DNA of 64,000 bases from Baekduia soli (GTDB taxonomy: Bacteria > Actinomycetota > Thermoleophilia > Solirubrobacterales > Solirubrobacteraceae), in contig NZ_CP042430.1 of the NCBI RefSeq assembly GCF_007970665.1, positions 4,774,001 through 4,838,000 of the forward strand, read 5' to 3'. The notes below the pieces were generated by a model. That model searched no databases, was not told the DNA's origin, and was given only the letters and a program-made list of their open reading frames with translations. Of the stretch, positions 20,283 through 42,892 are shown one piece after another; position 1 is the stretch's first letter, and each line of letters begins with the position of its first letter. The position numbers and the translations under genes were made by a program.

Positions 20283-20894
20283 CTATCGGTCGAGGCCGGA
20301 GCAGATCGTCTCGACGATGAGGCGCTTGGCCTCGTCGTAGTCGCCGGCGGCCTGCGGCAGCGTCGCGAAGATCCAGCCCGTCAGCACCTGCTCGATCGCG
20401 CCGTAGAACGCCATGGCCGCGAACTGCGGCGAGATGTCGGAGCGGAACTCGCCGGCGTCCTGGGCCTTGGCGACCACCGCGGCGATCAGGTTGTAGGCCT
20501 CGTTGATCTTCTCGATGTGGGTCTGGCCGAAGGAGTTCGCCGCCCGCGTGACCTCGACGATGATGACCTTCATCAGGTCGGGGTCGTGCCGGTAGGAGTC
20601 CACGATGAACGCCGCGATGGCCTCGAGCTTGCGGCGCGCGGCGAGGTCGCGCGCGTCGACCTCGCGGATGGCCTCGAGCATCACATCCCAGCGCTCGAGG
20701 AACAGCGTGTCCAGGACCTGGTCCTTGGATCGGAAGTAGTGGTACACCAACCCGTAGGCGACGCCGGCCTCGTCGGCGATGTCGCTGACGCGGCAGGCGT
20801 GGAAGCCCTGGGAGGCGAAGACGCGGACGGCCGCGTCGAGGATCAGGCGGCGCTTCTCGGCCGCGTTGGCGGCGCTGCGCGCGGTCCCGGCCAT
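20283..20894 (-). CDS. TetR-family transcriptional regulator
   Basis: A 203-residue repressor with an N-terminal helix-turn-helix: ILDAAVRVFASQGF, then VSDIADEAGVAYGLVYHYFRSKDQV (about 17-63). The C-terminal ligand domain has FFYGAIEQVLTGW-like family features (FYGAIEQVLTGW near 170). It resembles the fatty-acid-responsive FadR/acyl-CoA type of TetR, which is a loose inference. The start overlaps the nitrilase stop by one base (TGATG), so it is co-transcribed with it. The likely operator is the perfect palindrome at 21721-21738 upstream of the operon. Confidence 0.87.
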   Translation of the reverse strand: MAGTARSAANAAEKRRLILDAAVRVFASQGFHACRVSDIADEAGVAYGLVYHYFRSKDQVLDTLFLERWDVMLEAIREVDARDLAARRKLEAIAAFIVDSYRHDPDLMKVIIVEVTRAANSFGQTHIEKINEAYNLIAAVVAKAQDAGEFRSDISPQFAAMAFYGAIEQVLTGWIFATLPQAAGDYDEAKRLIVETICSGLDR

Positions 20895-21697
20895 CAGCCG
20901 TAGACCTCCGGGCGGCGGTTGGCCAGCGACGGCAGGTCGGTGCGGATCCGCTGCAGCCGGTCGAGGTCGAGGTCGGCGACGATGTGGGTCTCGGCGTCGG
21001 GGGCCTGGGCGAGCACGATGCCCCACGGGTCGACGATCATCGAGCGCCCGCCCGTGCGCAGGCCGGGCGCGTGGCGGCCGACCTGGTTGGCGGCGACGAC
21101 GAAGCACTGGTTCTCGATCGCCCGCGCTCGCACGAGCACCTCCCAGTGGTCGCGTGTCGTGGCCTCGGTGAACGCCGCGGGCAGGGCGATGATCCGCGCG
21201 CCGTCGACCGCCAGGCGGCGGAACAGGTCGGGGAAGCGCAGGTCGTAGCAGATGGTCATCCCCAGGCCGACGCCCGACGCGGTGGCGCTGAGGACGATCT
21301 CGTCGCCCGGCGCCTCGCCGTCGGACTCGCGGTAGTCGCGCCCGCCGACCTGCACGTCGAACATGTGCAGCTTGCGGTAGGTCGCGCGGTCGCGGCCGTC
21401 GGGGCCGATGTGGACCGACGTGTTCGAGCCGCGCGCGTCCCCGCGCTCGGGGATCGAGCCCGCGACCAGGTCGATCCCCAGCTCGGCGGCGATCCCCCGC
21501 GCCCAGGTCAGCGCGGGCCCGTCGAGGTCCTCTGCGCCGTCGCGCAGCTCGGCCGGCGGGCCGTAGGAGGACCACTTCTCCGGCAGGACGACGAGCGAAG
21601 CGCCATCATGGGCGGCGGCGCGCACGAGGCGGTCGGCGGTGGCGAGGTTCGCGGCCCTGTCGGTGGTCGCGGTGAGTTGGACGGCGGCGGCGCGCAC
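20894..21697 (-). CDS. Carbon-nitrogen hydrolase (nitrilase superfamily, omega-amidase/Nit-like)
   Basis: A 267-residue nitrilase-superfamily amidase. The catalytic triad is Glu40 in VVLPEKW, Lys109 in TYRKLHMFD and Cys150 in TICYDLRFP. The spacing and the ICYDLRFPDLFR motif match the Nit1/Nit2-like amidase branch, which includes deaminated-glutathione amidases and omega-amidases. The start is GTG 21697, with a GGGAG upstream. It is the first gene of a TetR-controlled operon and is preceded by an 18-base perfect palindrome. Confidence 0.88.
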   Translation of the reverse strand: MRAAAVQLTATTDRAANLATADRLVRAAAHDGASLVVLPEKWSSYGPPAELRDGAEDLDGPALTWARGIAAELGIDLVAGSIPERGDARGSNTSVHIGPDGRDRATYRKLHMFDVQVGGRDYRESDGEAPGDEIVLSATASGVGLGMTICYDLRFPDLFRRLAVDGARIIALPAAFTEATTRDHWEVLVRARAIENQCFVVAANQVGRHAPGLRTGGRSMIVDPWGIVLAQAPDAETHIVADLDLDRLQRIRTDLPSLANRRPEVYG

Positions 21698-23915: not shown

Positions 23916-23927
23916 GCGACGGCTCAG
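23912..23927. terminator. Possible terminator hairpin between pepT and merR-type gene
   Basis: CTGAGC and GCTCAG form a six-pair stem with a GACG loop; the convergent stop codons of the two genes lie within the arms. There is no U-tract. Same arrangement as at 17866-17880. Confidence 0.35.
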
Positions 23928-24628
23928 CGCCCGCCGGCCTGGCGGCGCAGCTCGGCGAGCAGCAGCTTGGAGTGCATGGCGCCGAGCAGCTCGCGCAGCG
24001 GCTCGGTGCCCGAGGCGATGATGTCGGCGGCGCGCTCGGGCTCGACCTCGCCCGCGAAGCGCGCCAGCAGCGTGCGGATCTCCTCCTCGACCAGCGGCTG
24101 CAGCGCCTCGCGGTAGCGCAGCGTGTCGTAGACCGTGAACCCCAGCGCCTCGTCGTAGCCGCCGGCGCGGAACCGGACCATGGCCTCGATGATCGCCACG
24201 TCGTCGGCGTCGTAGCCCTGCTCGTCGGGCGTCAGCACCCCGATCTCGGCCAGGCGCTCGAGCACGTTGTCGGGCAGGTCGTAGCGACGGCGGATCTCCT
24301 CCGCGCCGACGCGGACGGTCTCGCGCCGCGCCAGCGCCCGCTCGATGATGCGGTCCTCCAGATCGACGAGCGCCAGCGCGCGGTCGGGGTCGGCCTCCAG
24401 CACCCCCTTGATGACCTTGAGGGGCATGAAGCGGTCCTCCTGCAGCCGCTTGATGAGCGTGATCCGCTCCACGTAGTGCGGCGGGTAGTAGGCCATGTTG
24501 CGCGAGGTGCGCACCACGTCGGCGTCGTCGCCGAGCAGCCCCTCGCGCAGGTAGTGCTTGATCGTGCCCGCCGACACGCCGCTGCGCTGGGCCAGCTCGC
24601 TCATCTTCAGCAGCCCGTCGGCGCTCAT
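23924..24628 (-). CDS. MerR-family transcriptional regulator
   Basis: A 234-residue regulator with the MerR winged-helix N-terminus: MSELAQRSGVSAGTIKHYLREGLL (about 9-32) followed by YYPPHYVERITLIKRLQEDRF and VIKGVLEAD. The effector region (about 80-234) has no recognised metal-binding cysteines, which argues against metal sensing and suits an organic or acyl-CoA ligand. It is encoded 16 bases after the racemase gene in the BKACE-racemase operon, so it is produced together with catabolic enzymes. It is the best candidate to bind the three related palindromes at 26780, 29178 and 30960; LiuR, a MerR regulator of branched-chain amino acid catabolism, is the closest analogy. Confidence 0.87.
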   Translation of the reverse strand: MSADGLLKMSELAQRSGVSAGTIKHYLREGLLGDDADVVRTSRNMAYYPPHYVERITLIKRLQEDRFMPLKVIKGVLEADPDRALALVDLEDRIIERALARRETVRVGAEEIRRRYDLPDNVLERLAEIGVLTPDEQGYDADDVAIIEAMVRFRAGGYDEALGFTVYDTLRYREALQPLVEEEIRTLLARFAGEVEPERAADIIASGTEPLRELLGAMHSKLLLAELRRQAGGR

Positions 24629-24644
24629 CGCCACATCCCCGCGC

Positions 24645-25886
24645 TCACCGCGACAGGAAGCTCCCGGGCGCGTCGGCGTCGGCCTCGGGCGGCCCGGCCA
24701 CCGCGCCCGACGCCAGGAGCTCGGCGACCCGCCCGTCGTCGTAGCCGGCCTCGCGCAGGACCTGCTCGGTGTGCTCGCCCAGGCCGGGCCCGCCGCTGCG
24801 CACCCGCCCCGGCGTGCGCGACAGCTTGACCGGCATGCCCAGCCCCTGGACCGTGCCGGCGCCGGGCTGCTCGAACTCGATGACCATCTCGCGGGCGCGC
24901 ACGAGCTCGGAGGCCAGCGCCTCCTCGACCTCGAGCATGGGCTCCAGGCAGCAGTCGTGCTCTGAGGCGAACGCCGCCCACTCGTCGCGGGTGCGCTGCG
25001 CGAAGATCGCCTGGATCTCGGCGTGGGTCTCGCCGCCCGGCCGGTCGAACTGTCGGGGCACCAGGTCCTCGCGGCCGACGCCCGCGCACCACGCCGCCCA
25101 GAACTTCGGCTCCAGCGCGCCGAGCGTGACCCAGCCGTCGGCGCAGCGGTAGGGCCGGTAGCAGACGAGCGACCCACCGAGCATCTCGTCGCCGCGGCGC
25201 GGGCGCTCGCCGGCGGCGAACACGCGGGCGGCGACCATGGCCAGCCACGACAGGGCGCCGTCGAACATCGAGACGTCGACGAGCTGGCCCTGCCCGCTGC
25301 GGTCGCGCTCGCGCAGCGCGGCCAGGATGCCGAACGCGGCCATGAGCGCCCCGCCGCCGATGTCGGCGATCTGGCCGCCGGCCTGCGTCGGCGGCCCGTC
25401 CTCGTCGCCGCTGATGGCCAGCAGGCCGTTGAGGCCCAGGTAGTTGAGGTCGTGGCCCGAGCGCTGCACGTTGGGGCCGGTGAGGCCGTAGCCCGTGACG
25501 GCGCAGTAGACGAGGCGCGGGTTGACCGCGCGCAGCGCCTCCCAGCCCACGCCGAGGCGATCCAGCACGCCGGGGCGGAAGGACTCCAGCAGGACGTCGG
25601 CGTCACGGGCGAGGTCGAGCAGCGCCTGCCGGCCGGCGTCGGACTTCAGGTCGATGCGCACGGAGCGCTTGCCGCGGTTGAGGGCCAGGAACAGCGCGCC
25701 CCCCGCGCTGGGCTCGGCACCCGCGAACGCCGGCGGCGACCAGCGGACGTAGTCGCCCATCCCGGTGTCCTCGACCTTGATGACGTCGGCGCCGAAGTCG
25801 GCCAGCAGCAGCGAGCAGAAGCCGCCGGGCAGCAGCCGGCTGAGGTCCAGGACCCGCAGGCCCTCGAACGGAAGCGGCGCGCTCAC
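24645..25886 (-). CDS. mcr: Alpha-methylacyl-CoA racemase (CaiB/BaiF superfamily)
   Basis: A 413-residue class III CoA-transferase-fold protein. Most family members are CoA transferases, but this one matches the racemase branch: His145 in GHDLNYL and Asp175 in ADIGGG are exactly 30 residues apart, as are His126 and Asp156 of the mycobacterial racemase, and Glu259 in GALEPKFW lies where its Glu241 falls. The enzyme interconverts R and S 2-methylacyl-CoA esters, needed before beta-oxidation of methyl-branched acids. The GTG start overlaps the BKACE stop (GTGA), and the MerR gene follows. Confidence 0.85.
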   Translation of the reverse strand: MSAPLPFEGLRVLDLSRLLPGGFCSLLLADFGADVIKVEDTGMGDYVRWSPPAFAGAEPSAGGALFLALNRGKRSVRIDLKSDAGRQALLDLARDADVLLESFRPGVLDRLGVGWEALRAVNPRLVYCAVTGYGLTGPNVQRSGHDLNYLGLNGLLAISGDEDGPPTQAGGQIADIGGGALMAAFGILAALRERDRSGQGQLVDVSMFDGALSWLAMVAARVFAAGERPRRGDEMLGGSLVCYRPYRCADGWVTLGALEPKFWAAWCAGVGREDLVPRQFDRPGGETHAEIQAIFAQRTRDEWAAFASEHDCCLEPMLEVEEALASELVRAREMVIEFEQPGAGTVQGLGMPVKLSRTPGRVRSGGPGLGEHTEQVLREAGYDDGRVAELLASGAVAGPPEADADAPGSFLSR

Positions 25887-26770
25887 GCCGCGGCCCCCGC
25901 GCGCTCGCGGAGCCCGAGCAGCGCCCGGGCCTCCTGCACGGTCGCGGGCCGGCGCCCCGCGTCGAGCGTCATCTGCCGGGCCCGGCCGACGAGCTCGCCG
26001 TTGGAGCGGGCCATCGTGCCGTCGGGCAGGTAGAGGTTGTCCTCCAGGCCGACACGGACCGAGCCGCCGAGCGACAGGGCGGCCGCCAGCAGCGTCCACT
26101 GCACCCGCGAGATGCCGATCACGCCCCAGTGGGCGTCGACGCCCTCCGGCAGGTTGTCGGCCATCGCGGCGAGGTTGCGCGCCGTGGCCGGGACGCCGCC
26201 CGTGACGCCCAGGACGAAGTCGGCGTGCAGCGGCGCCTCGAGCAGCCCCATGTCCAGCAGCGGGACCAGGGAGCCGACGTGGCCGAGGTCGAAGCACTCG
26301 TGCTCGGGCTTGATCCCCAGCTCGCGCATGGCCTTCAGCAGCGCGATGATCTCGCCGAACGGGTTGGGGAACACGGTCTCGAAGACGAAGTCCTTGCGCC
26401 GCGCCGAGTACTTGGCGTAGTTCATGGACCCCATGTTGAGCGCGGCGACCTCGGGCGGGCACGCCTGCAGGTAGGCGACCCGGCGCTCCACCGACACGCC
26501 GACCGTGCCCGTCGAGAAGTTCAGGATCGCCGCGTCGCCGACCTCGGCCCGGATCGCGTCGTGGATCGCCGTGAAGTCCGCGGCCTCGTAGCTCGGCACA
26601 CCCGCGGACGTGCGGGCGTGGATGTGGATGTGCACCCCGCCCTCGTCCACGATCCGCCGGGCCTCGGCGGCGTACTCCTCCGGCGTGTACGGGATCGCCG
26701 GACACTGCTCGCGGTTGGCCAGCGCGCCGGAGATGGCGCACGTGATGACGACGGGATCCTCGAGGCTCAC
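25883..26770 (-). CDS. Beta-keto acid cleavage enzyme (BKACE, DUF849 family)
   Basis: A 295-residue zinc enzyme of the BKACE/Kce family, which condenses a beta-keto acid with acetyl-CoA and splits it to a CoA ester and acetoacetate. The metal-binding VHIHIHAR is near residue 45, STGTVG near 88, and the family-typical [14 protein letters not shown] near 243. GTG 26770 is preferred to the in-frame GTG at 26800 because GGAG (26776-26779) lies five bases upstream and because the longer version would place the operator inside the gene. It heads the operon BKACE-racemase-MerR. Its keto-acid substrate is unknown. Confidence 0.88.
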
Positions 26771-26779
26771 GCTTGCTCC

Positions 26780-26807
26780 GTGGGAAGTGGGACGTGCCAC
26801 TTCCCAC
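26780..26807. promoter_or_regulatory. Palindromic operator-like site A (upstream of BKACE operon)
   Basis: GTGGGAAGTGG (26780-26790) and its exact reverse complement CCACTTCCCAC (26797-26807) flank GACGTG, giving an almost perfect 28-base palindrome just upstream of the ribosome-binding site. Its core AGTGGGACGTGCCACT recurs with few changes at 29178-29208 and 30960-30983, upstream of other acyl-CoA catabolic genes. Confidence 0.78.
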
Positions 26808-26876: not shown

Positions 26877-27551
26877 CTACCGGCGCGACTGCAGGAAGAA
26901 GTACAACAGCTGGGCGACGGACGCCACGAACGCGGCGACGTAGGTCCAGGCCGCGGCGCCCAGGACCTTCTTGGCCCCCGTGAGCTCGTCGGCCTCCAGC
27001 AGGCGGCCGTCGGTGAGCGCGACGAGCGCGCGGCGCGACGCGTCGAACTCGACGGGCAGCGTCACGAGCTGGAAGACGACGATGGTCGTGAAGAGGGCCA
27101 GGCCGATCGTCGTCAGGCCGGTCACGCCGAGGATCAGGCCGAGGAAGATGACCGGCACGGCGGCCGAGGAGCCGATGGAGGCGACGGGGACGATGGTCTG
27201 GCGCACGCGCATCTGCAGGTAGCTGCGCGCGTCCTGGATCGCGTGGCCGGCCTCGTGCGCGGCGACGCCGAGCGCGGCCACCGTCGACGCGCGACCGACG
27301 TCGGCGCTGAGGTTCAGCGTGCGGCTGCGCGGGTCGTAGTGGTCGGTCAGCGTGCCCTCGACGAAGCGGATCTCGACGTCGGGCAGGCCCGAGGCGCGCA
27401 CGACGGCGGCGGCGGCCTGCGCACCGGTCATCCCGGAGCGCACGGACACCTCGCTGTAGCGGGCGAACGTGGTCTTGACGCGTCGCTGCGCCCAGAGCCC
27501 CAGCCCGAGCGGGACGATGAGGCAGGCCAGCCAGATCAGGGTCATCGACAT
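26877..27551 (-). CDS. Neutral zinc metallopeptidase of the YugP family
   Basis: A 224-residue membrane protein with an N-terminal membrane segment, the zinc-protease motif HEAGH (near residue 99 in GVAAHEAGHAIQD), and three further hydrophobic segments. YugP/Zn_peptidase_2 proteins have this topology; their substrates are not known. It lies between two parts of the acyl-CoA gene region but has no evident functional tie to it. The length matches the family. Confidence 0.86.
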   Translation of the reverse strand: MSMTLIWLACLIVPLGLGLWAQRRVKTTFARYSEVSVRSGMTGAQAAAAVVRASGLPDVEIRFVEGTLTDHYDPRSRTLNLSADVGRASTVAALGVAAHEAGHAIQDARSYLQMRVRQTIVPVASIGSSAAVPVIFLGLILGVTGLTTIGLALFTTIVVFQLVTLPVEFDASRRALVALTDGRLLEADELTGAKKVLGAAAWTYVAAFVASVAQLLYFFLQSRR

Positions 27552-27605: not shown

Positions 27606-29177
<1,572 letters not shown>

Positions 29178-29208
29178 GGGAAGTGGGAAGTCCTACTTCC
29201 CACTTCCC
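29178..29208. promoter_or_regulatory. Palindromic operator-like site B (upstream of carboxylase beta gene)
   Basis: Fourteen-base arms, GGGAAGTGGGAAGT (29178-29191) and ACTTCCCACTTCCC (29195-29208), are exact reverse complements with a three-base spacer. Read on the minus strand, 21 of 24 core positions match site A. The site abuts the carboxylase start codon and covers its predicted -10 element. Confidence 0.78.
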
Positions 29209-29335: not shown

Positions 29336-30127
29336 TCAGGGGATGAGCGGGTCGACCGCGCTGGCCACGAGCTCGGCGAGCTCGGGGGCGCCGAGCCCGG
29401 TGATCTCGCAGCCGATGAGGTCGCACGTCTCGGCGACCTCGGCCAGCAGCGTGCGCATCCCGGCGTCGCTCAGGCCGCCGGAGGCCGGGAACGCGGCGGG
29501 CAGCACGGACGGGTCGAGCACGTCGAGGTCCAGGTGGACGAAGACGTCGCGGCCCGCCAGCGCGTCGGCCAGCAGGCCCGGCCGCGTCATGCGCATCACG
29601 CCGTGGGTCTCCAGGAGCACCAGCTCGCCGCCGTCGAAGTCGCGCACGCCGCACATGACCACCGCGGACGGCTCGACGGTGGGCAGGTCGAACCCCGCGT
29701 CCCACAGCCCGCAGGCCCCGGCCAGGCACATCCCGCCCAGATAGCGCGAGAGCGTCGTGTCGGGCGTGTTGAAGTCGGCGTGGGCGTCGAGCCACAGGAT
29801 CGTGGCCTGCGGCCGGTGGCGCACGACGGCCGGCAGCGTCGTCAGGCTCACGCAGCAGTCGGCGGCCACGAGCACGGGGTAGGCGCCGGCGGCCAGCGCA
29901 TCGTCGACCTGGCCCCCGGCCTCCAGCAGGCAGCCGCGCGACTGGCGCAGGTCGTCCTGGAAGGCCTGCTCGCGCATCGGCGACGGGCTGCCGATGAGCC
30001 GCGGCTCCACGGCACGACGCCCGGCCAGCTCGCGGGCCAGCGCCTCGGTGGACCGCGCCGCGTCGGGGTGGCGCTCGCCGGTGCGGCACAGCATGGCCAC
30101 CACCTGCAGGCGCGCGGTCAGCGTCAT
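29336..30127 (-). CDS. Arginase/ureohydrolase-fold protein with altered metal site
   Basis: A 263-residue arginase-family protein. Two manganese-binding motifs are intact: DAHAD (114-118) and LDLDVLDP near residue 195. The first motif, normally GGDHS, reads AADCCVS (88-94), so the usual His ligand is replaced by Cys. A subgroup of arginase-like proteins has such a change, and their activity is uncertain. Its ATG overlaps the enoyl-CoA hydratase stop (ATGA), so it is co-expressed with acyl-CoA catabolism, possibly on a guanidino or amide substrate; that link is inference. Confidence 0.8.
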   Translation of the reverse strand: MTLTARLQVVAMLCRTGERHPDAARSTEALARELAGRRAVEPRLIGSPSPMREQAFQDDLRQSRGCLLEAGGQVDDALAAGAYPVLVAADCCVSLTTLPAVVRHRPQATILWLDAHADFNTPDTTLSRYLGGMCLAGACGLWDAGFDLPTVEPSAVVMCGVRDFDGGELVLLETHGVMRMTRPGLLADALAGRDVFVHLDLDVLDPSVLPAAFPASGGLSDAGMRTLLAEVAETCDLIGCEITGLGAPELAELVASAVDPLIP

Positions 30128-30909
30128 CGGCCCTTCCAGACCGGCTCGCGCTTCTCGAAGAACGCGGCGACGCCCTCCTGGATGTCCTCCGTGGAGAACG
30201 CGAGCGTCAGGTTGTGCTGCAGGAGCTCGAGCGCCGCGGTGAAGCCGAGGTCCTGCTGGCGGAACATGGCGTCCTTGCCCAGGCGCATCAACACGGGGGA
30301 CTTGCTCGCCAGGCGCCCGGCCCAGTCGGCCACCGCGGCGTCGAACTCGTCGGCCGGCACGACCTTGTTGACGATCCCCAGCCGCTCGGCCTCGGCCGCG
30401 TCGATGCGCTCGCCGAGCAGCAGCAGCTCGTTGGTCTTCTTGCGCCCGACGTTGCGGTAGATGAGCGCCATGATCATGAAGGGGAAGACCCCCACGTTGA
30501 TCTCGGGCGTCCCGAACGTCGCGCCCTCCCGCGCGATGACGAGGTCGCAGGCCAGCACGAGCCCGAGCGCCCCGGCGAGCACATGCCCGTTGGCCGCCGC
30601 CACGACGGGCTTGCCCAGCTCGCCGATGAGCCGGAAGAGCCTGGGGAACCGTGCGGTGGCGACGTGCTTGTGCACGAGCGGCACGTCAGCCGCGAAGCCC
30701 GCGAGGTTGCCGCCGCTGCTGAAGACCGTCGCGTGCGTCGAGGTGAGCACCACGCAGCGGACCGCGTCGTCGTCGCGGGCCGCGGTGAACGCGTCGAGCA
30801 GGTCCTGCATGACCTGGTCGCTCAGCGCGTTGCGCGTCTCGGGGTGGTCGAGGGCGATCGTCGCGACGCCCCCGTCGGCGACGTCGTAGCGCACGGTCTC
30901 GTAGGACAT
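30124..30909 (-). CDS. Enoyl-CoA hydratase/isomerase family protein, first copy
   Basis: A 261-residue crotonase-fold protein. The oxyanion-hole segments FSSGGNLAGF (near 66) and GALGLVLACDL (near 112) and the TPEINVGVFP motif with a catalytic-type Glu (near 138) are visible. The first of the two usual catalytic Glu positions appears as Leu (GALGL), which is seen in some crotonase members with other reactions. The ATG at 30909 is used rather than a longer in-frame start within the control region. It is divergent from an acyl-CoA dehydrogenase and shares palindrome C. Confidence 0.85.
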   Translation of the reverse strand: MSYETVRYDVADGGVATIALDHPETRNALSDQVMQDLLDAFTAARDDDAVRCVVLTSTHATVFSSGGNLAGFAADVPLVHKHVATARFPRLFRLIGELGKPVVAAANGHVLAGALGLVLACDLVIAREGATFGTPEINVGVFPFMIMALIYRNVGRKKTNELLLLGERIDAAEAERLGIVNKVVPADEFDAAVADWAGRLASKSPVLMRLGKDAMFRQQDLGFTAALELLQHNLTLAFSTEDIQEGVAAFFEKREPVWKGR

Positions 30910-30959
30910 CGCGCAAGCAAAGCACGTCGCGCCGGGGCCCGGCGGCCGGGCGGCTCGGC

Positions 30960-30983
30960 GGAAAGTAGGACGTGCCACTGTTT
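30960..30983. promoter_or_regulatory. Palindromic operator-like site C (enoyl-CoA hydratase / acyl-CoA dehydrogenase)
   Basis: This segment contains AGTAGGACGTGCCACT and matches site A at 18 of 24 positions. It lies between divergent starts at 30909 and 31017. A possible promoter for the plus-strand gene, TTTACT (30981-30986), 17 bases, TACCGT, begins at its edge. Confidence 0.68.
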
Positions 30984-31016
30984 ACTTCGACGGCGACGGC
31001 CGTTACCGTCCCGCCC

Positions 31017-32207
31017 ATGGCCTCCACCGCAGACCAGGTGCTCAAGCCCGACTTCGGCGCATCCCGCAAGCACTTCATCTTCACCGACGAGCACGAGCAG
31101 CTGCGCGAGTCCATCCGCAGCTTCGCGATCAAGGAGCTCGCCCCCCACGCCGACGAATGGGAGGAGACGACGTTCCCCGACTCGGTCTTCCCGCGGATGG
31201 GCGGCCTGGGCTTCCTCGGCCTCGACAAGCCCGAGGCCTACGGCGGCCAGGGCGGCGACTACTTCACGGCCCTCGTGCTGGCCGAGGAGATCGTGCACGC
31301 CCGCTCCGGCGGCCTGGCCATGGGCCTGGCCGTCCACACCGACATGGCGATGCCGCCCATCCTGGCCTTCGGCACCGAGGAGCAGAAGCAGGAGTGGGTC
31401 GTGCCCGCCATCAGGGGCGAGAAGATCCTGTGCCTGGGCATCACCGAGCCCGACGCGGGCTCCGACGTGGCCGGCATCAAGACCCGAGCGGCCCGCGACG
31501 GCGACGACTACGTCATCAACGGCTCCAAGACCTACATCACCAACGGCCACCGCGCCGACGTGATCGTCCTGGTCACCAAGACCGACCCCGACGCCGGCTA
31601 CGACGGCTTCACGCTGTTCCTCGTGCCGATGGACGCGCCCGGCGTCATCCGCGAGAAGCGCCTGGAGAAGCTCGGCATGCACGCGTCGGACACCGCGCTG
31701 CTGGCCTTCCAGGACGTGCGCGTCCCGGCCACCGCGGTCCTCGGCCAGGTCGGCAAGGGCTTCTACCACATCATGTGGGAGCTCCAGGGTGAGCGCCTCA
31801 TCGGCGCCGCGGGCTGCGTGGCCGGCGCCCAGCACTGCTTCGACCAGACGCTGCAGTACGCCAAGGAGCGCACGGCGTTCGGCCGCCAGATCGGCAAGTT
31901 CCAGGTCATGCGCCACAAGTTCGCCGAGATGGCCACCAAGATCGAGACGGCCCGCCAGCTCGTGTACACCACGGCGTGGCGCCACCACAACGGCGACTAC
32001 CCCGTGCGCGAGATCTCCATGGCCAAGCTGCACGCCGCCCGCGTCGCGGTCGAGGTCGCCGACGAGTGCATCCAGATCCATGGCGGCGCCGGCTACATGA
32101 AGGAGTACGGCGTCGAGCGCGTGTGGCGCGACATGCGGCTCAACCGCATCGGCGCCGGCACCGACGAGATCATGCTGGACGTCATCGGACGCTCGTATGG
32201 CCTCTAG
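31017..32207 (+). CDS. Acyl-CoA dehydrogenase, isovaleryl/long-chain type, first copy
   Basis: A 396-residue FAD-dependent acyl-CoA dehydrogenase that makes the 2,3-double bond in acyl-CoA. Motifs are CLGITEPDAGSDV (near 140), the FAD segment RTAFGRQIGKFQV (near 287) and the C-terminal IQIHGGAGYMKEYGVERVWRD. The usual short-chain catalytic Glu position reads GAGT (no Glu), while Glu259 in LQGERL fits the catalytic position of isovaleryl-CoA dehydrogenase. That suggests branched or long acyl substrates. ATG 31017 is chosen; longer starts would fall in site C. A HerA-like ATPase gene follows after 14 bases. Confidence 0.88.
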   Translation: MASTADQVLKPDFGASRKHFIFTDEHEQLRESIRSFAIKELAPHADEWEETTFPDSVFPRMGGLGFLGLDKPEAYGGQGGDYFTALVLAEEIVHARSGGLAMGLAVHTDMAMPPILAFGTEEQKQEWVVPAIRGEKILCLGITEPDAGSDVAGIKTRAARDGDDYVINGSKTYITNGHRADVIVLVTKTDPDAGYDGFTLFLVPMDAPGVIREKRLEKLGMHASDTALLAFQDVRVPATAVLGQVGKGFYHIMWELQGERLIGAAGCVAGAQHCFDQTLQYAKERTAFGRQIGKFQVMRHKFAEMATKIETARQLVYTTAWRHHNGDYPVREISMAKLHAARVAVEVADECIQIHGGAGYMKEYGVERVWRDMRLNRIGAGTDEIMLDVIGRSYGL

Positions 32208-33772: not shown

Positions 33773-34915
33773 ATGACGGCGTGGCCCCCGTTCACCGACG
33801 AGCACGAGCAGCTGCGCGCGTCCATCCGGGGGTTCGTGCGCTCCGAGCTGCGCCCGCACGCGGCGGCGTGGGAGCGCGACCGCGGCTTCCCGGACGAGGT
33901 CTTCGCGACCTGCGCGCGCCAGGGGCTGCTCGGCCTGAAGTACCCGGAGGCCTACGGCGGCCGGGGCGGCGACCATCTCCACGAGGCGGTCCTGTGCGAG
34001 GAGCTCGCCGCCTGCGGCTCGGGCGGCGTGGCCGCCGGGATCGGGGCCCACGCCAACATCGCCACGCCGCCGATCCACCGCTTCGGCACCGAGGACCAGA
34101 AGCAGCGCTTCCTCGTGCCGGCCATCGCCGGCGAGCGGATCGGCGCGCTGGCCATCACCGAGCCCGACGCCGGCTCCGACGTCGCGGCGGTCCGGACCCA
34201 CGCCCGCCGCGTCGAGGGCGGGTGGCTGGTCAACGGCTCCAAGATGTTCATCACCAACGGCGTGCGCGCGCACTTCTGGGTGACCGCGGTGCGCACGGGC
34301 GAGCAGGGCGGCCACCACGGGCTGAGCTTCCTGATCGTCGAGCGCCAGGACGGCATCACGGCGTCGAAGATCGAGAAGCTCGGCTGGCACGCCTCCGACA
34401 CGGCGCTCATGGCCTTCGAGGACGTCTTCGTGCCCGAGGAGAACCTGCTCGGCGGCGAGAACGAGGGCTTCGGGCTCATCATGGCCAACTTCCAGTGGGA
34501 GCGCCTGGCGATGGCCCTGGGCGCCGTCGGGGCCATGCAGGTCGCCTACGACAGGACGGTGGCCTTCGCGCAGGAGCGCCGGGCGTTCGGGCGCCCGCTC
34601 ACCGGCCACCAGGTCCTGCGCCACAAGCTCGCCGACGTCGCGGCGACACTGCACACCGCGCGGGCGGTGACCTACGACGCGCTGCGGCGCTTCGCCGCCG
34701 GCGAGGACGCGGTCAAGGAGGTCACGATCGCCAAGCTGGCCACCCAGCGCGCCGCCTTCGACGTGACCGACACCTGCCTCCAGCTGCACGGCGGCGCCGG
34801 CTACATGGAGGAGTACGAGATCGAGCGCATGGCCCGCGACGCCCGGCTCGGGCCGATCGGCGGCGGGACCGACGAGATCATGCGCGAGATCCTCGGCAAG
34901 GTCCTCGGCCTGTAG
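33773..34915 (+). CDS. Acyl-CoA dehydrogenase, isovaleryl/long-chain type, second copy
   Basis: A 380-residue acyl-CoA dehydrogenase similar to the one at 31017: both begin with an FTDEHEQLR block. Motifs are ALAITEPDAGSDV, RRAFGRPLTGHQVLRHKLAD and LQLHGGAGYMEEYEIERMARD. Glu243 in FQWERL occupies the isovaleryl-CoA dehydrogenase catalytic position, and the short-chain position lacks Glu (GGGT). The ATG abuts the previous stop codon. Two related copies around one ATPase gene suggest duplication with substrate divergence. Confidence 0.88.
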   Translation: MTAWPPFTDEHEQLRASIRGFVRSELRPHAAAWERDRGFPDEVFATCARQGLLGLKYPEAYGGRGGDHLHEAVLCEELAACGSGGVAAGIGAHANIATPPIHRFGTEDQKQRFLVPAIAGERIGALAITEPDAGSDVAAVRTHARRVEGGWLVNGSKMFITNGVRAHFWVTAVRTGEQGGHHGLSFLIVERQDGITASKIEKLGWHASDTALMAFEDVFVPEENLLGGENEGFGLIMANFQWERLAMALGAVGAMQVAYDRTVAFAQERRAFGRPLTGHQVLRHKLADVAATLHTARAVTYDALRRFAAGEDAVKEVTIAKLATQRAAFDVTDTCLQLHGGAGYMEEYEIERMARDARLGPIGGGTDEIMREILGKVLGL

Positions 34916-41866: not shown

Positions 41867-42079
41867 GTGCCGGACATCCAGGCCCACATCACGGGCACCG
41901 TGTGGAAGATCGAATGCCAGATCGGCGACCGCGTCGCCGAGGGCGACACCGTCGTGATCCTCGAGTCGATGAAGATGGAGATGCCCGTCGAGGCCGAGGA
42001 CGAGGGCGTGGTCAAGGAGATCCTCTGCGAGGAGGGCCAAGCGGTCAACGAGGGCGACAGCCTCGTCGTCCTGGAGTAG
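41867..42079 (+). CDS. Stand-alone biotin/lipoyl attachment protein (BCCP-like)
   Basis: A 70-residue single biotinyl domain. The attachment lysine is Lys36 in ESMKMEM, with Gly and hydrophobic positions typical of carboxylase biotin carriers. Such a free-standing domain is the mobile carrier between biotin carboxylase and carboxyltransferase. GTG 41867 is preceded by AGGAGG five bases upstream. A partner could be the carboxyltransferase at 27606; no biotin carboxylase is in the window. An enoyl-CoA hydratase gene follows by 18 bases. Confidence 0.9.
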   Translation: MPDIQAHITGTVWKIECQIGDRVAEGDTVVILESMKMEMPVEAEDEGVVKEILCEEGQAVNEGDSLVVLE

Positions 42080-42097: not shown

Positions 42098-42892
42098 GTG
42101 GCGGGCGAACTGCTCATCGACGAGCCCCTCGACGGGGTCCGTCGGCTCACGATCTCCAACCCGGCCAAGCGCAACGCGCTGGACCACGGGATCCTCGACG
42201 CGATCGCGACGGCGGTCCCGGCGGCCGAGGCCGACCCGTGCGTCCGGGCCCTGCTGCTGACGGGCGCCGACGGCATGTTCTCCTCCGGATACGACATCGG
42301 CGACATCCCCGACGACGTGTTCGCCGTCGAGGCCGAGCGCCTCGTCGCCCACCCCTACACGGAGGCGATCGACGCGCTGGCCGCCACCGACCTGCCCACG
42401 GTGGCGGCGCTGCCCGGGCACACGATCGGCGGCGGCCTGGAGCTCGCGCTGGCCTGCGACCTGCGGCTGGGCCGCGACGGCATCACCCTCGGGATGCCGC
42501 CGGCCAAGCTCGGCCTCGTCTACTCCCACACGGGGCTGCGCCGGTTCCTGGACGCCATCGGAGAGCCGCGCACGCGCGAGCTGTTCCTGCTCGGCCGCAC
42601 GATCGGCGCGCGGACCGCGCGTGAATGGGGGCTGCTGCACGCCGTCGCCGGCGCCGAGGACCTCGAGGCCGAGGCGCTGGACTGGGCGGCCGAGCTGGCC
42701 GCCAACGCCCCGCTGTCCATCGCGGGCAACAAGCAGGTGCTCCGCGCGCTGCTCGCCGCGGAGGGGGCGCTGGATCCCGAGGCCGAGGCCGCGCTCGTCG
42801 CGCTGCGCCGCGACTGCTTCGCCTCGGCCGACCTGCGCGAGGGCGTGCGGGCCTTCGCGGAGAAGCGCCCGGCGCGCTGGCAGGGCCGATGA
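42098..42892 (+). CDS. Enoyl-CoA hydratase/isomerase family protein, second copy
   Basis: A 264-residue crotonase-fold protein beginning at GTG 42098. The CoA-pocket FSSGYDIGD (near 64) and GGGLELALACDLRLG (near 109) carry one catalytic-type Glu, whereas the second Glu position is changed (GMPPAKLGLV). This differs from the first copy (30124), which keeps only the second. The reaction may be hydration, isomerisation or decarboxylation. The stop overlaps the SEC-C gene (ATGA). It follows the biotin carrier gene closely. Confidence 0.85.
   Translation: MAGELLIDEPLDGVRRLTISNPAKRNALDHGILDAIATAVPAAEADPCVRALLLTGADGMFSSGYDIGDIPDDVFAVEAERLVAHPYTEAIDALAATDLPTVAALPGHTIGGGLELALACDLRLGRDGITLGMPPAKLGLVYSHTGLRRFLDAIGEPRTRELFLLGRTIGARTAREWGLLHAVAGAEDLEAEALDWAAELAANAPLSIAGNKQVLRALLAAEGALDPEAEAALVALRRDCFASADLREGVRAFAEKRPARWQGR

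Follow-up and report, generated by a model that had tools for sequence, protein, structure and literature searches.

A MerR-linked gene cluster of Baekduia soli that may serve the breakdown of methyl-branched acyl-CoAs

The window analysed here is a 64,000-nucleotide stretch of Baekduia soli DNA (GCF_007970665.1, NZ_CP042430.1, positions 4774001-4838000) from a single-contig genome of 5.21 Mb, with gene boundaries set by a simple gene caller written for the analysis. It contains a cluster encoding an acyl-CoA dehydrogenase (ACAD1), a crotonase (ECH), the carboxyltransferase subunit of an acyl-CoA carboxylase (CT), a protein of the beta-keto acid cleavage enzyme family (BKACE, or DUF849), a CoA-transferase family III protein of the alpha-methylacyl-CoA racemase type (RAC) and a MerR-family regulator (Table 1). 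That this cluster is a one-locus regulon, with ACAD1, crotonase, CT, BKACE and RAC under the MerR protein by way of putative operators, is well supported. Our preferred reading, which we hold tentatively and at somewhat less than even odds, is that this MerR-controlled single-locus regulon handles methyl-branched acyl-CoAs by a carboxylase-lyase-BKACE route. A preliminary description had proposed a methyl-branched acid route from BKACE, RAC and their neighbours; this theme is the most sensible one. That RAC and BKACE act as consecutive steps finds little support, their presence across genomes being only weakly associated (P = 0.049, or 0.27 in the more complete genomes).

Gene order and conservation

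The neighbourhoods of the best 80 of 283 relatives were compared. Nearly all of these are titled Solirubrobacterales or Actinobacteria, and the few titled otherwise (for example Chlamydiae bacterium and Bifidobacterium breve metagenome-assembled genomes) were taken as mislabelled. The closest named relatives among the 80 are Solirubrobacterales of the genera Conexibacter, Solirubrobacter, Patulibacter and Paraconexibacter. Across this order the usual arrangement is ACAD1 divergent from crotonase-CT-BKACE-RAC-MerR, and the neighbours of RAC and BKACE are indeed conserved. In B. soli the BKACE and RAC genes, both with a GTG start, are joined by a 4-bp overlap (GTGA), in line with the translational coupling named in the preliminary description. 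RAC directly follows BKACE in 42 of 60 neighbourhoods compared within the order (families f1, f2, f76 and f77) and is separated from it by one called open reading frame in 5. The remaining 13 have no RAC downstream; two of them end at a contig edge, and one of these (L113) has RAC by genome search. RAC and MerR were found together in five of ten fetched loci poor in BKACE (L212, L213, L214, L218 and L220). CT and BKACE are directly adjacent in many relatives, without the zinc-peptidase-like gene that lies between them in B. soli, and the arginase-superfamily-like gene adjoins the cluster in some relatives only.

Table 1. Genes and putative operators of the B. soli cluster, in window coordinates
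Feature	Position	Strand	Remarks
MerR-family regulator	23924..24628	-	234 aa; final operon gene; presence tracks the palindromic operator
RAC, CoA-transferase family III, alpha-methylacyl-CoA racemase type	24645..25886	-	413 aa; GTG start; PF02515
BKACE/DUF849 protein	25883..26770	-	295 aa; GTG start; PF05853
Operator 1 (putative)	26780..26807		upstream of BKACE-RAC-MerR
Zinc-peptidase-like gene	26877..27551	-	PF04298; between CT and BKACE
CT, acyl-CoA carboxylase carboxyltransferase subunit	27606..29177	-	separate clade beside PCC/ACC and MCC types
Operator 2 (putative)	29176..29203		1 mismatch to degenerate form; abuts CT start codon
Arginase-superfamily-like gene (weak match)	29336..30127	-	between crotonase and CT; no obvious role
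ECH, crotonase	30124..30909	-	Gly116/Glu136 replace the usual two Glu
Operator 3 (putative)	30958..30985		1 mismatch to degenerate form; between divergent ECH and ACAD1
ACAD1, acyl-CoA dehydrogenase	31017..32207	+	divergent from ECH; shares operator
Second acyl-CoA dehydrogenase	33773..34915	+	nearby

MerR regulator and putative operators

Neither the MerR gene nor the operators figured in the earlier operon account, and both were found here. Operator 1 is a perfect 11-bp inverted repeat, GTGGGAAGTGG-N6-CCACTTCCCAC, spanning 28 bp. With up to 3 mismatches the strict palindrome has 2 sites in the window against 0.00 expected. A search of the whole 5.2-Mb genome with a degenerate form, allowing up to 2 mismatches, gave three sites, all within the cluster, and the reversed-pattern control gave 0. 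The palindrome was also sought in a sample of 81 genomes of the order, 63 of them at least 90% complete and 18 below 90%. A match occurs in 46 of these, with 77 sites in sum, against 13 reversed-control sites in 11 genomes; from these control sites it follows that some lone palindrome sites elsewhere arose by chance.

Rows identical in their core were collapsed for this and the later comparisons, which removed 12 BKACE, 8 RAC and 8 ECH rows and 9 operator loci. The best site near ECH, ACAD1, CT or BKACE was sought in the 67 distinct loci seen in full view. Where the MerR gene is present, 52 of 55 loci have a site with no more than 4 mismatches; where it is absent, 1 of 12 does (P = 5e-7). The reversed control never came below 5 mismatches, and at loci without MerR the palindrome sites surpass it by only a small margin (P = 0.04). 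Because gene and palindrome occur together, the MerR protein is very probably the cognate regulator of the palindrome.

The CT start codon directly abuts operator 2 (29170-29203, TTCCC-ATG), which leaves no space for a ribosome-binding site; the transcript may be leaderless, or translation may begin at a more internal codon.

MerR-family regulators are familiar in related settings. Branched-chain amino acid genes are controlled by the MerR-family LiuR in proteobacteria, and PMC5045206 cites MerR-family regulators of isoprenoid catabolism. A MerR-family regulator with a palindromic operator is thus common to the liu operon and the present cluster, a likeness in the type of control. If the proposed route is correct, the dedicated MerR-operator pair would be a sensor for methyl-branched compounds of this kind.

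Co-inheritance of the cluster genes

Presence and absence across the 81 genomes were read by hand from the tables, and the Fisher tests given below treat genomes as independent of relatedness. A BKACE orthologue is missing from 17 genomes, and all 17 also lack CT (P = 7e-11). BKACE is likewise tied to 3-hydroxy-3-methylglutaryl-CoA (HMG-CoA) lyase, which is encoded outside the cluster: in the 63 more complete genomes, 7 of 7 without the lyase are also without BKACE, compared with 7 of 56 that have it (P = 6e-6; six genera). Genome G413 was counted as lyase-less in this, its truncated match scoring 236.5 bits at a cut-off of 246. When all 81 genomes are taken, three lyase-less genomes have BKACE, and these are 82, 74 and 89% complete. 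The lyase is above cut-off in 68 of the 81 genomes and is lost together with BKACE, not exchanged for it, and the idea that BKACE stands in for HMG-CoA lyase was accordingly rejected.

The link between BKACE and RAC is looser: 53 genomes have both, 7 have neither, 10 have RAC only and 11 have BKACE only (P = 0.049; 0.27 in the 63). A BKACE fragment ending at a contig edge in G439 was counted as present (counting it as absent gives P = 0.10), and G421 and G457, which have only short remnants of the gene, were counted as lacking it. When these three genomes and G451 (contig edge) are left out, BKACE-CT becomes 12 of 12, BKACE-lyase 6 of 6 against 6 of 53, and BKACE-RAC P = 0.11. RAC and the lyase are associated at P = 0.15 (0.18 in the 63). 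By these co-loss statistics CT, BKACE and a lyase from elsewhere form the tight unit, with RAC as a co-regulated side branch.

Proposed route

In the main branch, for 3-methyl-branched substrates, ACAD1 would make a 2-enoyl-CoA, and CT with a biotin carboxylase encoded elsewhere would carboxylate the 3-methyl group, as methylcrotonyl-CoA carboxylase (MCC) and geranyl-CoA carboxylase (GCC) do. The crotonase would hydrate the carboxylated product to 3-hydroxy-3-R-glutaryl-CoA, an HMG-CoA-lyase-type enzyme from another locus would cleave this to acetyl-CoA and the free beta-keto acid R-CO-CH2-COOH, and BKACE would convert the latter with acetyl-CoA to R-CO-CoA and acetoacetate. HMG-CoA lyase yields acetyl-CoA and a free beta-keto acid; given the chemistry of lyase and BKACE, a 3-methylacyl-CoA longer than isovaleryl-CoA would leave a free acid that BKACE could use. 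With R = CH3, as in leucine breakdown, the exchange would have no net effect, which points to a substrate longer than isovaleryl-CoA, for example an isoprenoid acid. In the side branch, for 2-methyl substrates, RAC would convert a (2R)-methylacyl-CoA to its (2S) epimer, which is the one dehydrogenases can use. In favour of this reading count the shared regulon, the joint loss of BKACE with CT and with HMG-CoA lyase, the operator-linked MCC-type carboxylase of genus g9, the crotonase paralogue beside an MCC-type CT and a lyase, the placement of RAC among racemases, and the known MerR-family regulators of comparable catabolism.

In a bolder version, about which we are slightly more doubtful, BKACE would provide a previously undescribed way out of the carboxylase-lyase sequence: in place of the AtuA step of Pseudomonas it would turn the free beta-keto acid, at the cost of acetyl-CoA, into a shortened acyl-CoA and acetoacetate. 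Used once for each isoprene unit, in combination with a single beta-oxidation round and with RAC serving the 2-methyl frame, it would allow Solirubrobacterales to strip regular isoprenoid chains. The nearest known systems are Atu (acyclic terpenes) and Liu (leucine and isovalerate) of Pseudomonas, which have in common with the cluster the logic of acyl-CoA dehydrogenase, biotin-dependent carboxylase, crotonase and lyase for 3-methyl-branched acyl-CoAs. The cluster differs from them in its added BKACE and racemase, in a CT from a different clade, and in having neither the HMG-CoA-type lyase nor the AtuA by which a liu or atu operon is recognised, the listed B. soli genes for these lying elsewhere. 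The Atu lyase is described as giving acetate and a beta-ketoacyl-CoA, whereas the proposed route passes through a free beta-keto acid. An AtuA-family match is present in 8 of the 81 genomes of the order, B. soli itself having two copies, and absent from 73. If true, the route would be a second solution for the step done by AtuA in Pseudomonas. A search of the open-access literature, subscription papers lying outside it, gave no description of a combined BKACE, carboxylase, lyase and racemase route.

The same enzymes could instead belong to leucine and isovalerate breakdown, or to branched-chain amino acid catabolism in general, under a LiuR-like MerR protein, with BKACE handling acetoacetate, for instance by exchange with another acyl-CoA. 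The control of such genes by LiuR in proteobacteria, the liu-like enzyme set and the association of BKACE with HMG-CoA lyase all agree with this. The B. soli genome, however, already has HMG-CoA lyase at two MCC-type loci elsewhere: L321, where an MCC-type CT and a biotin-carboxylase-like gene are its neighbours, and L322. In addition, BKACE acting on acetoacetate and acetyl-CoA would give a null reaction, and leucine breakdown has no step for a racemase. We consider this explanation unlikely, if the strongest of the competing ones.

The BKACE protein

The gene coupled to RAC belongs to the BKACE family as previously proposed, with a PF05853 score of 292 bits (cut-off 24.8), and its zinc ligands His49, His51 and Glu243 are invariant in 119 of 119 distinct rows. 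The acetoacetate-forming reaction is a prediction from this family membership. To our knowledge many DUF849 members have no known physiological substrate, and an order-wide one-locus regulon in these little-studied soil actinobacteria narrows the partners of one of them. The regulon predicts as substrates the beta-keto acids that would come from HMG-CoA-lyase-type cleavage of 3-methyl-branched acyl-CoAs. A structural model (mean pLDDT 74) had its best fold matches in 3LOT and KCE. At 10 of 12 further putative active-site positions the protein matches KCE, and positions 14 and 84 differ. The cluster BKACE has PF05853 and the zinc ligands in common with KCE, PdKce and other DUF849 proteins, and differs from KCE and PdKce in being tied to a carboxylase, a crotonase and HMG-CoA lyase, not to lysine fermentation. 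The family reaction, as given in PMC12871164, is beta-keto acid plus acetyl-CoA to a CoA ester plus acetoacetate.

PMC12871164 also calls a tyrosine common to all BKACEs and catalytic, and reports that BsfD, which has another chemistry, is without it. The cluster protein has Phe160 at this position in every distinct row (119/119), where KCE and PdKce have Tyr. It might then be a C-acyltransferase like BsfD, or some other zinc enzyme, in a cluster that makes or modifies a dicarbonyl compound. BsfD, a DUF849 protein of the flavophos cluster, does have Phe at this position and transfers an acetyl group without cleavage, according to the same paper. Against this, only two of the 12 other positions compared with KCE differ, and Phe is frequent in the family: it occurs in 8 of the 18 usable DUF849 paralogues of the order (L230, L231, L234 and L236-L240; 21 were sought, 20 of them fetched and one from an earlier locus) and in the solved structures 3CHV, 3FA5 and 3C6C. 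BsfD itself is distant (9zsc, 128 bits) and stands in another pathway context, and no other gene of the cluster looks biosynthetic. Phe160 therefore does not decide which reaction the protein carries out, the Tyr-to-Phe change was dropped as proof of a non-BKACE chemistry, and a BsfD-like role seems improbable. The common Phe among the paralogues of the order conflicts with the universal-Tyr statement in PMC12871164.

Carboxyltransferase, crotonase and dehydrogenases

A carboxyltransferase, a hydratase and isovaleryl-type dehydrogenases had been named as neighbours in the preliminary description. The carboxyltransferase gene is real. Its loop, GAGYYVM, is intermediate between the GGAYDVM of the propionyl-CoA carboxylase (PCC) type and the GAGNYGM and similar loops of the MCC types, and resembles GAGNYGM more. 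Three genomes of genus g9 (G165, G420 and G432) have the cluster without CT, and there a 0-mismatch operator precedes another carboxylase. The beta subunits of this carboxylase at L298 and L300 have the MCC-type loop GAGNYGMCGR and fall with MCC-type CTs in the tree; at the third locus (L299) the operator-linked beta subunit was called in two pieces, so that tree and loop results cover the first two. At L298, the one locus scanned for domains, the alpha subunit carries a BT_MCC_alpha domain, and an esterase-domain gene (PF00756) lies on the other side of the operator.

The crotonase gene is also real, and its assignment as a hydratase is weakened in that hydratases usually have two catalytic Glu residues and this protein has one. 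The genome holds a paralogue that is 65% identical to the cluster crotonase, shares its single-Glu site and is flanked by genes for an MCC-type CT and an HMG-CoA lyase; four other proteins compared with the cluster crotonase, a part of the crotonases of the genome, are 30-35% identical to it. Both acyl-CoA dehydrogenase genes exist, and the label isovaleryl is not specific, ACAD1 scoring higher in the PDB with other acyl-CoA dehydrogenases (2pg0, 333 bits) than with the isovaleryl-CoA dehydrogenases 4kto (261 bits) and 1ivh (255 bits).

The racemase-type protein

RAC is a member of CoA_transf_3 (PF02515, 386 bits) and has His145, Asp175 and Glu259 where the preliminary description placed the racemase residues, with a His-Asp spacing of 30. 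In 89 distinct rows (the window protein and 88 orthologues) His is present in 88, with Asn in one, and Asp and Glu in all 89. The triad aligns with those of FAR and the MCR-type racemase 8rmw, while a formyl-CoA transferase in the same comparison lacks both the His and the Glu; we take the catalytic residues of MCR to be His126, Asp156 and Glu241. In a 50-row tree RAC, 10 orthologues, 21 distant relatives from the phylum, FAR and MCR make up one clade of 34 rows (support 100/100), within which FAR and MCR are on a long branch. FRC, SUGCT, YfdE, CaiB, two further PDB members and all ten paralogues from the B. soli genome included in the tree fall outside it; the genome has 13 such paralogues, of which 12 were extracted and 2 then dropped as miscalled. 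The catalytic triad and the clade are thus common to RAC and the mycobacterial MCR and FAR; these are about 360 aa long against 413 aa for RAC, which differs also by its operon with a carboxylase, BKACE and MerR.

That RAC might instead be a CoA-transferase activating a free acid finds some encouragement in its CoA_transf_3 membership and in the PDB search, where the formyl-CoA transferase 10uh (212.8 bits) scored about the same as FAR (212.1 bits). RAC stays far below the curated formyl-CoA or succinyl-CoA transferase equivalog cut-offs, with scores such as 243.9 of 700 (the best), 225.3 of 750 and 200.3 of 504 bits, and together with the full triad and its place in the MCR/FAR clade this makes such a role very improbable. 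The phylogenetic check proposed for RAC, racemase against formyl- and succinyl-CoA transferases, was passed. RAC groups with methylacyl-CoA racemases rather than with CoA-transferases and on sequence grounds is a predicted racemase. The predicted structure (mean pLDDT 63.8) was too low in confidence for a fold search. RAC as the sole methylmalonyl-CoA epimerase was rejected, a VOC-family epimerase being above cut-off in 78 of the 81 genomes.

A linear route would bring RAC and BKACE together: BKACE would cleave a 4-methyl-3-oxo acid to a 2-methylacyl-CoA, the coupled RAC would epimerise this for a dehydrogenase, and CT would be a propionyl-CoA carboxylase taking up propionyl-CoA. The gene overlap, the frequent adjacency of the two genes (42 of 60, with one open reading frame between in 5), their weak association in the 81 genomes and a CT score nearer to PCC are in line with it. 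Against this, the association fades in the more complete genomes, 10 genomes have RAC only and 11 BKACE only, and RAC-MerR occurs without BKACE at five of the ten BKACE-less loci fetched, with BKACE-MerR without RAC at others. The CT loop GAGYYVM also departs from the GGAYDVM of the PCC-type CT in the same genome, and such a route gives no reason for BKACE to track HMG-CoA lyase. A linear route is in our view distinctly unlikely, more so than a role in leucine breakdown.

Evidence weighing against the carboxylase-lyase-BKACE route

Several observations count against the carboxylase-lyase-BKACE route. In the tree the cluster CT falls in a separate clade, neither PCC/ACC nor MCC-type, where the MCC-type rows are proteins from B. 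soli and g9 recognised by loop and neighbours, with no solved MCC or GCC included; overall it is nearer to PCC (523 bits against about 315 for MCC). CT as an MCC or PCC proper was rejected, given this clade of its own. The alpha subunit partner of CT was not identified, no genome-wide search for a biotin carboxylase having been made. The cluster crotonase lacks the first of the two classical hydratase Glu residues and keeps the second in 77 of 77 distinct rows. By gene content of the window and family scan there is no HMG-CoA lyase in the cluster, lyase genes being elsewhere in the genome, and a genome-wide search found no palindrome at any B. soli HMG-CoA lyase gene. Phe160 at the tyrosine position described as catalytic is a further point. 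In ten genomes BKACE is present and CT gives no full hit; contig ends account for several of these, though not for G055. RAC too shows a weak association with CT (P = 0.0013; 0.016 for the 63 genomes), and the co-losses may reflect a general loss of catabolism.

Other loci and neighbouring genes

Beyond the MerR end of the cluster lies a pair of genes for a carbon-nitrogen hydrolase and a TetR protein (20283-21697), as in many relatives; the search of the B. soli genome found no palindrome before it. On the other side of the cluster a gene for a 70-aa stand-alone biotin/lipoyl carrier (41867-42079) is followed by another crotonase gene (42098-42892). Elsewhere in the genome, L322:4594-12281 is a complete-looking locus of crotonase, biotin carboxylase, MCC-type CT, crotonase and HMG-CoA lyase genes, at the end of which two genes, as read from the sequence, resemble a broken acyl-CoA synthetase. 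At L324:5185-12000 an AtuA-family gene is followed by biotin carboxylase-, carboxyltransferase- and crotonase-like genes, and this is likely an acyclic-terpene locus.

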